Assembly (NCBI GenBank): GCA_018715805.1
Contig: DVKX01000047.1
Location: forward strand, 62,001-126,000
DNA: 64,000 nucleotides
Direction: 5' to 3'
Source: Candidatus Faecousia intestinigallinarum
GTDB lineage: Bacteria; Bacillota; Clostridia; Oscillospirales; Oscillospiraceae
Shown: positions 1 to 6,549 of the stretch, piece by piece
Layout: the number at the start of each line of letters is the position of its first letter
Position numbering within the stretch: position 1 is the stretch's first letter
The notes under the pieces: generated by a model
Seen by the model: only the letters and a program-made list of their open reading frames with translations
Database searches by the model: none
Told to the model about the DNA's origin: nothing
Translations under genes and position numbers: made by a program

Positions 1-2
1 CC

Positions 3-1640
3 GTGAAGAATCTGGAGGCCGCCGGCAACAAGAATCTGGTGCTGGATGTCACCGCCGCCACCGCCAAGGAGACCCTGGCCAACGCCGTTCTGGTGCGCCG
101 CACCGCCCTGAAGGACGGCGACCGCAGCTTCGGCTATCCCTCCATCGTGAACGTGGCCAAGCTGGCCAAGGGCGATCCTCGCCTCCAGACCGCTTACGCC
201 GCTATGTTCACCGAAAAGTACGGCTCCATCATCGTCATGGAAAACATGACCTACGCCGAGGCGCTGCCTCTGTACGGCCTGCGTCAGAACATTTTCACCG
301 ATCCCCAGAAGCCCATGAAGGTGGAAGCCAAGATCTATCCCCTGAACGGCGCCGACGAGAACAGCCCCTGCTGCCTGACTGTGGACTTTGCTCTGACCTA
401 CTTCCTGGTGTCCGGCGAACTGGAGCGGAGCAATCAGCCTGTGAACCTGCTGATCACCGACGCTTCCGGTATGTCCGTGCTCACCGCCTGGGCTGCCGGC
501 AAATTCTCCTCTTCCTCCATTAAGAAGTTCTTTGATGAGAACGATATTGAAAACAAGATCAAGTCTCGCACCCTGATCATCCCCGGTAAGGTGGCTGTGA
601 TGAAGGGCGAGATCCAGGAGAAGCTGCCCGGCTGGAATGTGGTGGTAGGCCCCATGGAGGCTGTGCAGCTGCCCAAGTACATGAAGGATAAGGAATACGA
701 GGCCGCCGCCAAGGCTGCCGCCGCTGAGAATGCCGCCAAGGTCACCACCACCGCCGAGGTGAAGGAGCTCTCCTTCGAGGAGCTGCTGGAGACCCGGGTT
801 CCCAAGATCGAAGTGGTGGATATGGGCGTGCAGTATAAGGGGCATAATCCCGAAGCCAAGACTTTCGTCACCATCGGCGAGCGCATCCACTGCATTGCGC
901 CCACCATCCGCAAGGCTATGGACGAGCGTGATCCCGAACCCATCCTGAAGCGTGCCGCCGAGCAGATCGCCGCCGGCGCTACTTACCTGGATGTGAACAT
1001 CGGTCCTGCTGAAAAGGATGGTCCGGAGCGCATGATGTGGGCTGTAAAGCTGCTGCAGGAGAACTTCAACAACGTGCCCCTGGCGCTGGATACCGCCAAC
1101 AAGAAGGCTATCGAGGCCGGTATCAAGGTATACAACCGCACCAACGGCAAGCCCATCGTGAACTCCGCCGACGCCGGTTCCCGTATCAGCTACATTGATC
1201 TGGCCGCCGCCAACGACGCCATCTGCATCGCCCTTTGCTCTGCCGACGGCATTGCCAAGGACAATGAGGAGCGGATGAAGCACTGCCACAATATGCTTGA
1301 GCGGGGCATGAGCCTGGGCATGACCTCCGACGATCTGTGGTTTGACCCCCTGTTCCTAGTGGTCAAGGGTATGCAGGACAAGCAGATGGAAGTGCTGGAG
1401 GCCATCAAGCTGTTTGCCGACGAGGGTCTGAAGTCCACCGGCGGCTTGAGCAACAACTCCAACGGCGCTCCCAAGCATGTCCGTCCCATCATGGACGCCA
1501 CCCTGGTAGCCATGGCCATGATGCAGGGTCTGACCTCCGCCATCGTGAACCCCAATGACCTGCGGCTGATGGAGACCATCAAATCCTGCGACATCTTCAA
1601 GAATCACGTGCTGTACTCCGACTCCTACCTGGAGCTGTAA
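3..1640 (+). CDS. acsC-acsE: Corrinoid iron-sulfur protein large subunit (AcsC, C-terminal part) fused to methyltetrahydrofolate:CFeSP methyltransferase (AcsE); 5' end truncated by window edge
   Basis: N-terminal part has AcsC-like C-terminal sequence (TDASGMSVLTAWAAGKF...LPGWNVVVGPMEAVQLPKYMKDK); after an Ala-rich linker it has the AcsE/pterin-binding fold (TFVTIGERIHCIAPTIRKAMDERDPEPIL...LDVNIGP...LDTANKKAIEAG...GGLSNNSNG). No stop codon between them. Confidence 0.85.
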   Translation: MKNLEAAGNKNLVLDVTAATAKETLANAVLVRRTALKDGDRSFGYPSIVNVAKLAKGDPRLQTAYAAMFTEKYGSIIVMENMTYAEALPLYGLRQNIFTDPQKPMKVEAKIYPLNGADENSPCCLTVDFALTYFLVSGELERSNQPVNLLITDASGMSVLTAWAAGKFSSSSIKKFFDENDIENKIKSRTLIIPGKVAVMKGEIQEKLPGWNVVVGPMEAVQLPKYMKDKEYEAAAKAAAAENAAKVTTTAEVKELSFEELLETRVPKIEVVDMGVQYKGHNPEAKTFVTIGERIHCIAPTIRKAMDERDPEPILKRAAEQIAAGATYLDVNIGPAEKDGPERMMWAVKLLQENFNNVPLALDTANKKAIEAGIKVYNRTNGKPIVNSADAGSRISYIDLAAANDAICIALCSADGIAKDNEERMKHCHNMLERGMSLGMTSDDLWFDPLFLVVKGMQDKQMEVLEAIKLFADEGLKSTGGLSNNSNGAPKHVRPIMDATLVAMAMMQGLTSAIVNPNDLRLMETIKSCDIFKNHVLYSDSYLEL

Positions 1641-1724: not shown

Positions 1725-3854
1725 ATGAGTGTACTAACCGATCTGATCTACGGCGGTTCCAACGCCGTAGCCGGTCTAACGGAAGGCGCTGTCAACGACG
1801 CCATTGCCAAGTATGGCGCGGACAAGGAGATCGCGTTCCCCGATACCGCCTACTACTTCCCCACCATCTATGCCGCCACCGGCGTGAAGGTGAAAACCCT
1901 GGGCGACCTGCCCGCCTGCGTGGGCGTGCTGAAAAGCCTGATTACCAACCAGGAGGATCTGGGACAGGCGCTGAATGCCGGTCTGGCTACTGCGGTGGGC
2001 GCGGAGATCCTGGAGGGTCTGAAATATGCAGAGGGCGGCAACCCCTATGAGAGCGACAGCGGCATCGGCTTCGTGCCCGACCCCATCATTCGTTCCCTGG
2101 GCGTGCCTCTGGTCACCGGCGATATCCCCGGCGTGGCCGTGGTACTGGGCAAAGCCAACGACCCCGCCGACGTGGTCAAGGTGGTCAAGGACTACCAGTC
2201 CAAGGGCATCCTCACTTTCCTGGTGGGTGATGTAATCGAGCAGTGTGCCGAGGGCGGCGTGAAGATGGGTCTGGAGCTGCGGGTCATCCCTCTGGGGCAT
2301 GATGTGACCTCCGTGATCCATGTGGTTACTGTGGCCATCCGGGCGGCGCTGATTTTCGGCAATGTGAAGCCCGGCGATCTGGCGGGGCTTCTGGATTACA
2401 CCAAGAACCGCGTACCTGCCTTTGTAAATACCTTCGGCGCCATTGACGCGGTGGTCGTCTCCGCCGGCGCAGGCGCCATCGCCCTGGGCTTCCCGGTGGT
2501 GGTGGATGTGGAGCTGGGTGAGAATCAGGTTCCCGGCGCACTGGAGTCCGTCACCGATCACAACGATACCGTCAAGCGCTCCCTGGAGATGCGGAATATT
2601 AAGATCAAGGTGAAGGAGCTGCCCATCCCCGTAGCCTTTGCCGCCGCTTTTGAGGGTGAGATCATCCGCAAGGCCGACATGAAGTGCGAATTTTATTCCG
2701 GCAAGAATCCCACCGCAGAGCTGGTGGTCATGCGGGATATGAGCCAGGTGGAGGATCACAAGATCACCATCATCGGCGATGATCTGGATTCCGGCAAAAA
2801 GGACTTTGCCCTGGCCACCTATGTGGAAGTGGCAGGCAGCAAGATGCAGCCGGACTTCGAATCTGTCATCGAGCGGAAGTTCCATACCTGGTTTAACTAT
2901 CTGGAGGGCGTCATGCACACCGGCCAGCGGAATCAGGTGCGTATCCGCGTTTCCAACGACGCCTACGACAAGGGTCTGCGGATGAAGGATTTTGCGGAAG
3001 TTCTGTACACCATGATTATGGATGAATTTGACACCGTTGTGGATAAGTGCCAGGTCACCCTGATTACCGACCCTGAAAAGGCTGCCGCCTTCCGGGACGA
3101 AGTGGCAATGCCCCGCTACAACCAGCGGGACGACCGCCTGGCCTCCATGACCGACGAGTCCGTGGATTGCTACTATACCTGCATTCTCTGCCAGTCCTTC
3201 GCCCCCGCCCACTGCTGCGTGGTAACCCCCGAGCGGCTGGGTCTGTGCGGCGCGGTGAGCTGGCTGGACGCAAAAGCCACCTATGAACTGAACCCCAACG
3301 GTCCCAGCCAGCCCATTTACAAGGAAGGCTGCATGGACGAAAAGACCGGCCGCTATGAATCCGTCAACAAGGCCGTGGCGGAAGCCACCCACGGCGCGGT
3401 GGAGAACATCACCCTGTACTCCATCCTGGAGGATCCCATGACCAGCTGCGGCTGCTTTGAATGCATCTGCGGCATCGAGCCTATGAGCAACGGCTTCATT
3501 GTGGTAAACCGGGAATTCAAGGGCATGACCCCTGCCGGCATGACCTTCGGCGAGCTGGCCAGCTGCACCGGCGGCGGCGTACAGACCCCCGGCTACATGG
3601 GTCACGGCCGCCACTTTATCTCCTCCAAGAAGTTCATCGCGGCGGAGGGCGGCATTGAGCGCATTGTATGGATGCCCAAGGAACTGAAAGACGATGTGGC
3701 CGAGCGGCTCAATAAGACCGCTATGGAGCTCTACGGCATTGAGAACTTCTCCGACTACATTGCCGATGAAACCGTTACCACCGACTGCGAGGAACTGCTG
3801 AACTGGCTCACCGAGAAGAATCACCCGGTATTGAGCATGGAACCTCTGATGTAA
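1725..3854 (+). CDS. acsB: Acetyl-CoA synthase, CODH/ACS beta subunit
   Basis: A-cluster cysteine motifs CILCQSFAPAHCCVVTPERLGLCGA and SCGCFECI; RBS aaggagga upstream of ATG 1725. Confidence 0.93.
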   Translation: MSVLTDLIYGGSNAVAGLTEGAVNDAIAKYGADKEIAFPDTAYYFPTIYAATGVKVKTLGDLPACVGVLKSLITNQEDLGQALNAGLATAVGAEILEGLKYAEGGNPYESDSGIGFVPDPIIRSLGVPLVTGDIPGVAVVLGKANDPADVVKVVKDYQSKGILTFLVGDVIEQCAEGGVKMGLELRVIPLGHDVTSVIHVVTVAIRAALIFGNVKPGDLAGLLDYTKNRVPAFVNTFGAIDAVVVSAGAGAIALGFPVVVDVELGENQVPGALESVTDHNDTVKRSLEMRNIKIKVKELPIPVAFAAAFEGEIIRKADMKCEFYSGKNPTAELVVMRDMSQVEDHKITIIGDDLDSGKKDFALATYVEVAGSKMQPDFESVIERKFHTWFNYLEGVMHTGQRNQVRIRVSNDAYDKGLRMKDFAEVLYTMIMDEFDTVVDKCQVTLITDPEKAAAFRDEVAMPRYNQRDDRLASMTDESVDCYYTCILCQSFAPAHCCVVTPERLGLCGAVSWLDAKATYELNPNGPSQPIYKEGCMDEKTGRYESVNKAVAEATHGAVENITLYSILEDPMTSCGCFECICGIEPMSNGFIVVNREFKGMTPAGMTFGELASCTGGGVQTPGYMGHGRHFISSKKFIAAEGGIERIVWMPKELKDDVAERLNKTAMELYGIENFSDYIADETVTTDCEELLNWLTEKNHPVLSMEPLM

Positions 3855-4001: not shown

Positions 4002-5927
4002 ATGAAAGTAACCTTCCAGATCGAAGACGCCTCCCCAGTCGTCATGGAATGTAATGCAGGCGACAATCTGCTGGAACTGGCGCGCCGGGGCAATGTGGCC
4101 ATCGATGCTCCCTGCTCCGGCAACGGCTCCTGCGGAAAGTGCCGGGTAAAGCTGATATCCGGTCAGCTGGAGTGCCTTCCGTCCCGGCACATTTCCGACG
4201 AGGAGTGGGCGCAGGGCTGGCGGCTCAGCTGCAACTGCCGCGTGATGGGCGACGCTACGGTATTTGTGCCGGACATCGCCTCTGCTTATCAGTCCCGGAT
4301 GAAAACCGCAGATCTCTCCTCTCCCCAGGAGATCGCCATCTTCCAGGAGGCGCAGGACGCCCTTCGGGAGAGCGGCATCCATTTCCAGAACGCTTTCCGC
4401 TCTCTGGTTTTGGAAATGACCGCCCCCACCCTGGACGACACCATGCCGGACAACGAGCGCCTTACCCGCGCCATCCAGGAAGCCCTGGGCGTGGAGCAGG
4501 TGGAGATCCCCTATGCCGTCATGGTAAAACTGGCTGCTGCCCTTCGGAAATACAATTTCCGCTTGTGCGTCAAGGGCGAATTAGTGGGGAATACCTTCCG
4601 CTGCATGGAGCTGTCCAGCCCGGAGGATACTGTCATCGCCGCCTGTGCCATCGACATCGGCACTACCACGGTTTCCATGGTGCTGGCCGATCTGGAAAGC
4701 GGCAGGCTGCTGGCCAAGGGTTCCTCCGGCAACGGCCAGATCCGCTACGGCGCGGATGTCATTAACCGCATTATCCAGCAGAGCCGCCCCGGCGGGCGGA
4801 AAAAATTGCAGGACGCCATCATCCAGGAGACCCTGACCCCCATCCTGGCCAACCTGTGCCGGACTGCGGGCATCTCCGCCAAGAGCATCCTGCAGCTGTG
4901 CGTGGGCGCCAATACCACCATGAATCATCTGTTTGTGGGAGTGGACGCAGAGAGCGTGCGCATGGAGCCGTATATCCCCAGCTTCTTTCACTGGGATGGG
5001 CTGCTGGCCGGGGATCTGCATTTGCCCGCCAATCCCCTGGCGCCTGTACGCATCGCTCCCAATATCGGCTCGTATGTAGGCGGCGACATCACCGCCGGTA
5101 CCCTGGCCAGCATGATCTGGGACAAGGACGAGATGAGCCTGTTCATCGACCTGGGCACCAACGGCGAAATTGTCTTCGGCAACCGGGACTTCCTGATGAG
5201 CTGCGCCTGCTCCGCAGGCCCCGCCTTTGAAGGCGGCGACATTTCCTGCGGTATGCGCGCCACCGACGGCGCCATTGAAGCCTGCACCCTGGACAAGGAA
5301 ACTATGGAGCCTTCCCTGTCCATTGTGGGCGACGGAGACCAAAAGCCGGTGGGTATCTGCGGCTCCGGCATTATCGACATCATTTCCGAGCTGTTCCGCT
5401 GCAGCATTATCAACGCCAAGGGACTGTTCGTCCGGGAGGGACGGCGGGTGCGCCGGGACGCCCACGGTATGGGGAGGTTCGTGCTGGCAGAGGCAGAGGA
5501 ATCGGAGACCGGCCGGGAGATCTCCCTGAACGAAGTGGACATCGACAATTTTATCCGCGCCAAGGGCGCTATCTTCTCCGCCATTGACACGCTGCTCTCC
5601 TCCGTGGATATGACCGTGGACATGATCGACAAGGTATATGTGGCCGGCGGCATCGGCTCCGGCATCAACATGAAGAACGCCGTAAATATCGGTATGTTCC
5701 CAGATGTGGAGTTGGAGAAGTTTGCCTATATTGGCAACGCCTCCCTTACCGGCGCTTACGCCATGGTTATGAGCGACCAGGCCAATGCCAAGTGTGCCGA
5801 GGTGGCCGCCAACATGACGTATCTGGAGCTTTCCACCTACCCTGGATATATGGATGCTTTTGTTGCGGCCTGCTTCCTTCCCCACACCGACACCCGGCTG
5901 TTCCCCCACAGCCTCCAGGAAATGTGA
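4002..5927 (+). CDS. acsV: ASKHA-domain ferredoxin-type reductive activator of corrinoid protein (AcsV/RACo-like)
   Basis: N-terminal 2Fe-2S motif APCSGNGSCGKCR...LSCNC; ASKHA ATPase motifs (AIDIGTTTVS, IDLGTNGEIV, VAGGIGSGI); adjacent to acsB. Confidence 0.85.
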   Translation: MKVTFQIEDASPVVMECNAGDNLLELARRGNVAIDAPCSGNGSCGKCRVKLISGQLECLPSRHISDEEWAQGWRLSCNCRVMGDATVFVPDIASAYQSRMKTADLSSPQEIAIFQEAQDALRESGIHFQNAFRSLVLEMTAPTLDDTMPDNERLTRAIQEALGVEQVEIPYAVMVKLAAALRKYNFRLCVKGELVGNTFRCMELSSPEDTVIAACAIDIGTTTVSMVLADLESGRLLAKGSSGNGQIRYGADVINRIIQQSRPGGRKKLQDAIIQETLTPILANLCRTAGISAKSILQLCVGANTTMNHLFVGVDAESVRMEPYIPSFFHWDGLLAGDLHLPANPLAPVRIAPNIGSYVGGDITAGTLASMIWDKDEMSLFIDLGTNGEIVFGNRDFLMSCACSAGPAFEGGDISCGMRATDGAIEACTLDKETMEPSLSIVGDGDQKPVGICGSGIIDIISELFRCSIINAKGLFVREGRRVRRDAHGMGRFVLAEAEESETGREISLNEVDIDNFIRAKGAIFSAIDTLLSSVDMTVDMIDKVYVAGGIGSGINMKNAVNIGMFPDVELEKFAYIGNASLTGAYAMVMSDQANAKCAEVAANMTYLELSTYPGYMDAFVAACFLPHTDTRLFPHSLQEM

Positions 5928-5937
5928 GGGCTGCCGT

Positions 5938-6549
5938 ATGCAGGTAGAAAACCACAAGGAAGAGGTTCCTTTCGAGCATTATGTCAACCTGTTCCGCAGT
6001 CTTTCCCCGGAGGACGCTCAGCGGCGGCTGCCGGACGTTCCCTGGGACGGCCAATGCTACTGCCTGACCCTGCTGGGGCGGGAGTATCGCATTGCCTGGC
6101 CGGAATACGCCATGATCCCGGCGGAGGGCAATGCTGTGCCGCCCCTGCCCACGCAAACCTTCCTGCTGCGCTATCTGCTGGAGGGAAAGAGCCTGCCAGC
6201 AGGGGACGGCTGGAAAACCTTTCGAGAAATGCCTTGGGGAGAGCTGTACCACCAGCCCTACAATGGCCGGATTCTCACCCGAGCGGCGTTTACCTTTGGC
6301 ACAAGGCTGGCGGCGTTTCAGGCCGCAGCAGAGAAGCTGGGCGGGCAGCGCCTTCCCCACGGCGACGCCGGTTACCAGTTCCAGCTCATTGGCCTCTACC
6401 AGATGCAGCTGCTGCTGTGGGAGGGAGATGAGGAATTCCCCCCCAGCGCCCAAGTGCTCTACTCCGACAATTTCTCCCAGGGCTTTTCCCCGGAAGATCG
6501 TGTAGTGGCGGGCGATATTCTCATTTCCCACATCAAAAATCTTATGTAA
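5938..6549 (+). CDS. DUF3786 domain-containing protein
   Basis: Resembles the DUF3786 family often found beside CODH/ACS genes; GTG/ATG upstream region overlaps acsV, ATG 5938 preferred. Confidence 0.65.
   Translation: MQVENHKEEVPFEHYVNLFRSLSPEDAQRRLPDVPWDGQCYCLTLLGREYRIAWPEYAMIPAEGNAVPPLPTQTFLLRYLLEGKSLPAGDGWKTFREMPWGELYHQPYNGRILTRAAFTFGTRLAAFQAAAEKLGGQRLPHGDAGYQFQLIGLYQMQLLLWEGDEEFPPSAQVLYSDNFSQGFSPEDRVVAGDILISHIKNLM

Follow-up and report, generated by a model that had tools for sequence, protein, structure and literature searches.

The closest described counterpart of the locus analysed here is the Moorella CFeSP-MeTr system (AcsCD plus AcsE; structures 4djd, 4dje and 4djf), in which AcsC and the methyltransferase AcsE are two separate chains. 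An acetogen methyltransferase joined to its corrinoid protein has been described in the Moorella MtaA-MtaC fusion (Mothe_c14370; PMC13391211), although that protein belongs to a methanol system, serves another reaction step and is built from other families than AcsC and AcsE. In the open papers searched we found no earlier description of an AcsC-AcsE fusion. In a 64,000-nucleotide stretch of DNA from Candidatus Faecousia intestinigallinarum (hereafter the window), by contrast with Moorella, AcsC and AcsE are encoded as one chain, joined by a 56-aa linker that contains a conserved module.

Positions 3-1640 of the window (+ strand) form a single open frame, which constitutes the last 545 codons of a longer gene. 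The GTG at window position 3, considered as a start, is a window-edge artefact; the true ATG lies 639 nt upstream of the window in the genome (G000), behind a strong ribosome-binding site (GGAAGGAGG). The full ORF (L003:9361-11640, corresponding to window -639 to 1640) ends with a TAA at window 1638-1640 and encodes 759 residues, of which the first in the window is residue 215, within the AcsC TIM-barrel domain. AcsC occupies residues 1-444 and AcsE residues 501-759, and both domains are complete. The uninterrupted AcsC-to-AcsE frame that a prior sequence-only reading of the window had reported is thus an intact ORF in the genome, while its computed mass of 82.7 kDa lies above the ~75-80 kDa which that reading had expected. 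An apparent open frame of 1114 aa raised the prospect of a triple AcsD-AcsC-AcsE fusion, which we rejected: AcsD is a separate ORF just upstream, and its TAA at L003:9337-9339, followed by a Shine-Dalgarno (SD) sequence and ATG, divides it from AcsC. Open-frame lengths from the genome search may read across stops, as in this frame and likewise in L235.

AcsC residues 1-214 (L003:9361-10002) lie upstream of the window, which opens with residues 215-444 (window 1-692, +), comprising the rest of the TIM barrel and the C-terminal corrinoid-binding domain. The supposition that the upstream part would prove to be AcsC was correct: residues 1-444 match NF003195 (E 1e-157, 525 bits against a cut-off of 306, model positions 1-446 of 450), the full ORF matches PF03599 (E 2.5e-78), and phmmer matches to 9fzy_F (E 9e-144) and 4djd_C extend across residues 1-443. 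The N-terminal [4Fe-4S] domain (PF04060, E 5.7e-12) has all four Fe-S cysteines (C17, C20, C25 and C42), invariant in the 51 fused sequences aligned. Also invariant in this alignment is T375, the threonine of the SVLTAW motif in the corrinoid domain, which we take to be the threonine near cobalt. The predicted role of the AcsC part is corrinoid binding and methyl delivery to acetyl-CoA synthase.

The AcsE part (residues 501-759 plus the TAA stop; window 861-1640, +) is a methyl-tetrahydrofolate:corrinoid/Fe-S protein methyltransferase domain, and its completeness, also claimed previously, is evident from a match to NF040758 that covers model positions 3-261 of 261 (E 2.4e-140, 466 bits, cut-off 370). 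The proposed family-model scan for both domains on one ORF returned matches for all of PF03599, NF003195 and NF040758. Alignment with 1f6y/2e7f equates D75, N96, D160 and N199 of Moorella MeTr with D577, N601, D662 and N698 here, each invariant among the 51 aligned fused sequences; the Moorella residues are those of the folate site, 2ogy being the N199A mutant. AcsE is encoded solely as the C-terminal domain of the fusion and not as a separate homodimeric protein. A separate homodimer is usual for the family and does not define it, and on sequence grounds the C-terminal domain is AcsE.

The linker (window 693-860) lies where the earlier reading had placed it, although it has 56 residues instead of about 50 and is Ala-rich in its first half only. 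Residues 445-478 (window 693-794, +) are rich in Ala, Glu and Lys, vary between genera and are modelled as a helix. Residues 479-500 (RVPKIEVVDMGVQYKGHNPEAK; window 795-860, +) form a conserved module that adjoins the AcsE domain and is not found in unfused AcsE, whose start lies two codons ahead of position 501 in 50 of 51 unfused relatives. Among 64 representatives the linker is 39-63 aa long (median 57), and over its last ~22 residues the clade shares the conserved motif P-x-I-x-V-V-D-M-G-V-x-Y-K-G-x-N-P-E-S-K, with the Y kept in 63, the V in 62, the P and the D in 58 each and the I in 57. Comparison within the genus gives the linker pN/pS ratios of 0.25 (residues 445-470) and 0.33 (residues 471-500), near the 0.32 of the AcsC barrel (corrinoid domain, 0.17; AcsE, 0.14), and the junction is therefore translated and constrained. 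These ratios indicate purifying selection on linker residues before as well as after the ATG that the linker contains. The module has no match in any solved structure, MetH included, and we set aside its interpretation as a MetH-like barrel cap. AlphaFold models of the whole fusion and of the module with AcsE (pTM 0.44 and 0.63, respectively) are too weak to place the domains and linker or to judge linker reach; at this modest confidence they contain a helix running out of AcsC and have fair local confidence at the module, and structural matches to them confirm the two halves only. The conserved linker end probably lies against the surface of a domain and sets the orientation of the two domains.

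A scripted check of the junctions in the fetched loci gave 150 fused loci with 106 distinct junctions. In the genus Faecousia, 96 of 101 sampled genomes match, and the junction is read through in 69 of the 70 genus genomes that cover it, the exception (G053) having a TAG. The TAG in the linker of one genus MAG (L031/L113) occurs amid a patch of clustered differences that suggest a sequence error, which is the probable explanation; a recent split is possible, and we did not retain these records as a secondary split. In a sample of the GTDB family, 13 genus groups have the fusion, and about 20 others have the two genes side by side but unfused. One fused record is not a MAG (Pseudoflavonifractor sp. 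MSJ-30, L088, RefSeq), and we take this strain to be an isolate. No fused gene was found outside the family, adjacent acsC and acsE being separate in all such loci; apparent same-frame pairs there have a stop between the genes where checked, and of the loci numbered L201 and higher, the only one to continue past AcsC is L201 itself, which belongs to the family. The wider samples comprise 297 genomes for the order and 398 for the phylum, and therefore leave room for rare fusions elsewhere. The suggested survey of Oscillospiraceae thus found a fusion that recurs but is not general for the family, being restricted to a single clade of some 13 genera.

A tree of AcsC plus AcsE with 92 rows places the fused genes in one group, at 100% support, together with a single unfused sister (L166); L031 is the only unfused row inside the fused genus. 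A careful 40-row tree also groups the fused genes with their unfused sister (support 100/100); constraining all fused rows to a single group raises the log-likelihood by 3.08 over the free tree (p-AU 0.56, 40 rows). A single origin is compatible with the tree and preferred by likelihood, if unproven. The AcsC of unfused relatives ends a median of 2 residues beyond position 444, and the acsC-acsE spacer has a median of 39 nt. With a median of 57 aa, the linker of the fused proteins is too long to be explained by simple read-through of such a spacer. One unfused genus (L194, L195) has the stop of acsC overlapping the start of acsE (GGCTAA over ATGGCTAAG), and the two genes are translationally coupled.

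Several readings compete with that of a genuine one-chain protein. Most records are MAGs, as would suit an assembly artefact or a frameshift merging two genes, the explanation that the sequence-only reading had named as its own refutation; we give it practically no credence, because the same junction occurs in dozens of independent assemblies and in one non-MAG record, across 13 genera and with a conserved linker. Another reading accepts the fused ORF as translated and has the product cut, or translation re-initiated, within the linker, so that AcsC and AcsE would be separate as in Moorella and the fusion would be a co-expression device only. Free AcsE might arise by internal initiation, by proteolytic cleavage or by RNA processing. 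For initiation, the sole in-frame ATG in the linker (window 822-824, +) is a candidate start, which we judge non-functional; it has a 3-nt SD match, in agreement with the earlier remark that no clear Shine-Dalgarno sequence plus start is present at the junction. Of the 64 representatives, 48 retain its Met (linker position -13), and in a few relatives GAGGT(G) precedes the ATG by 6-7 nt (GAGGTG by 6 nt), as re-initiation would predict. However, the ATG is missing in the other 16, the amino acids on both of its sides are under purifying selection, and SD matches of at least 5 nt accompany 17% of linker ATGs versus 11% of other internal ATGs (48 genomes), which is near background, whereas the real acsC and acsE starts in acs operons mostly have matches of 5-7 nt. 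No conserved internal start exists, and we regard cutting or re-initiation within the linker as very unlikely.

A neutral accident, in which the stop codon between neighbouring genes was lost and drift kept the fusion although nothing was gained in function, would require only a small mutational change, given that acsC and acsE of relatives are adjacent, with a median spacer of 39 nt, and can overlap. Yet the linker exceeds in length the spacer whose place it took, it contains a motif kept throughout the clade, and reversal is almost absent; this account is unlikely. Tethering that would fix a 1:1 stoichiometry and raise the local concentration, as the sequence-only reading had proposed, is a likely mechanism and the most economical reading, and agrees with selection on the linker and with long retention of the fusion.

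We therefore favour, with considerable confidence, a one-chain AcsC-AcsE that together with AcsD makes a CFeSP bearing a permanently attached methyltransferase. Translated in vivo as one chain, the fusion would combine with AcsD into a CFeSP with the methyltransferase built in, whose AcsE barrel would bind methyl-tetrahydrofolate. The AcsC corrinoid domain would then dock on AcsE in cis, or on that of a neighbouring chain if AcsE is dimeric as in Moorella, and its Co(I) would take the methyl group, after which the domain would move to AcsB and deliver it. The linker would hold the methyltransferase close by and at 1:1 yet leave the corrinoid domain free to swing out, possibly with a kinetic benefit. 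Such a natural tethered CFeSP-methyltransferase makes it possible to ask if the methyl branch of the Wood-Ljungdahl pathway is limited by docking or by stoichiometry.

The gene order in this genome is metF-cooC-acsD-acsCE-acsB-acsV, and cooC-acsD-acsCE-acsB is common to many fused loci. AcsB, the acetyl-CoA synthase alpha/beta (window 1725-3854, +; NF040764, E 1e-302), has its own SD and ATG (AAAGGAGGAGAACTTATG) and is followed by AcsV, the corrinoid reductive activator (window 4002-5927, +; NF040756, E 4e-277). A DUF3786 protein (PF12654; window about 5938-6549) is encoded behind acsV and is kept there in many fused loci, and a gene for an ARMT1-like damage-control phosphatase (L003:5455-6342) lies upstream of metF, near the Wood-Ljungdahl operon. 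The genome (2.09 Mb, 98.8% complete) encodes cooS and fhs elsewhere. A second Pterin_bind domain or a separate acsE was not found in this 98.8% complete genome. As the AcsE domain is its sole Pterin_bind match, folP (dihydropteroate synthase) appears to be absent too, and the bacterium probably takes up folate.

The fusion also bears on gene surveys. A 2024 survey based on KO labels scored acsE as 'not detected' for 78% of the Oscillospirales genomes that have CODH/ACS (7 of 9 genera), and in that order Faecousia supplied the most CODH genomes (PMC11338639); the acsE KO also serves as a criterion for calling a genome acetogenic (PMC12449052). Among NCBIfam models the fused protein scores best against acsC, with 525 bits compared with 466 bits for acsE, so annotation with one label would print acsC only. 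Extrapolating from these scores on the window's protein, the fusion probably explains the missing acsE in the Oscillospirales survey (PMC11338639). Under one-label-per-protein annotation the acsC name would mask the fused acsE, and gut bacteria that are abundant, Faecousia among them, may be wrongly counted as being without the step.

A genome profile search of G000 found no MetE (PF01717), no MetH and no canonical B12-binding domain (PF02310). The genome does encode a stand-alone MetH-type homocysteine methyltransferase domain of 291 aa (L252:7911-8786; G000:C3), with matches in 42 of 43 near-complete genus genomes, one of them lying within a frame of 935 aa and the others within fragments or frames of ~290-360 aa. 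By analogy with MetH, the AcsC-AcsE chain, with its pterin and corrinoid modules, might supply methyl groups to this lone domain and so form a split methionine synthase on the acetyl-CoA pathway, an idea we consider distinctly unlikely. As a candidate alternative for the methyl donor, the lone domain may be an enzyme that uses SAM or S-methylmethionine.

Compared with Moorella CFeSP-MeTr, the fusion shares the protein families, the Fe-S cysteines and the folate-site residues, and both halves match full-length. Unfused acsC-acsE pairs of related Oscillospiraceae (~20 genera) have the same gene order and are ~57-69% identical in AcsC and 68-80% in AcsE, but contain a stop, spacer, SD and ATG between the genes and lack the linker module. 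The fusion resembles MetH in that one chain combines a pterin-binding barrel with a corrinoid domain for methyl transfer from methyl-tetrahydrofolate to cob(I)alamin. It differs in the fold of the corrinoid domain (PMC13331322), in domain order and in the acceptor, which is homocysteine for MetH and acetyl-CoA synthase for the fusion; MetH carries homocysteine, pterin, B12-cap and activation domains in a single polypeptide, but only the pterin domain of the fusion matches the metH model (TIGR02082, 89 bits against a cut-off of 1011), and the protein falls outside the MetH family. The AcsC-AcsE chain would thus be a case in which nature repeats the single-chain logic of MetH with different folds.
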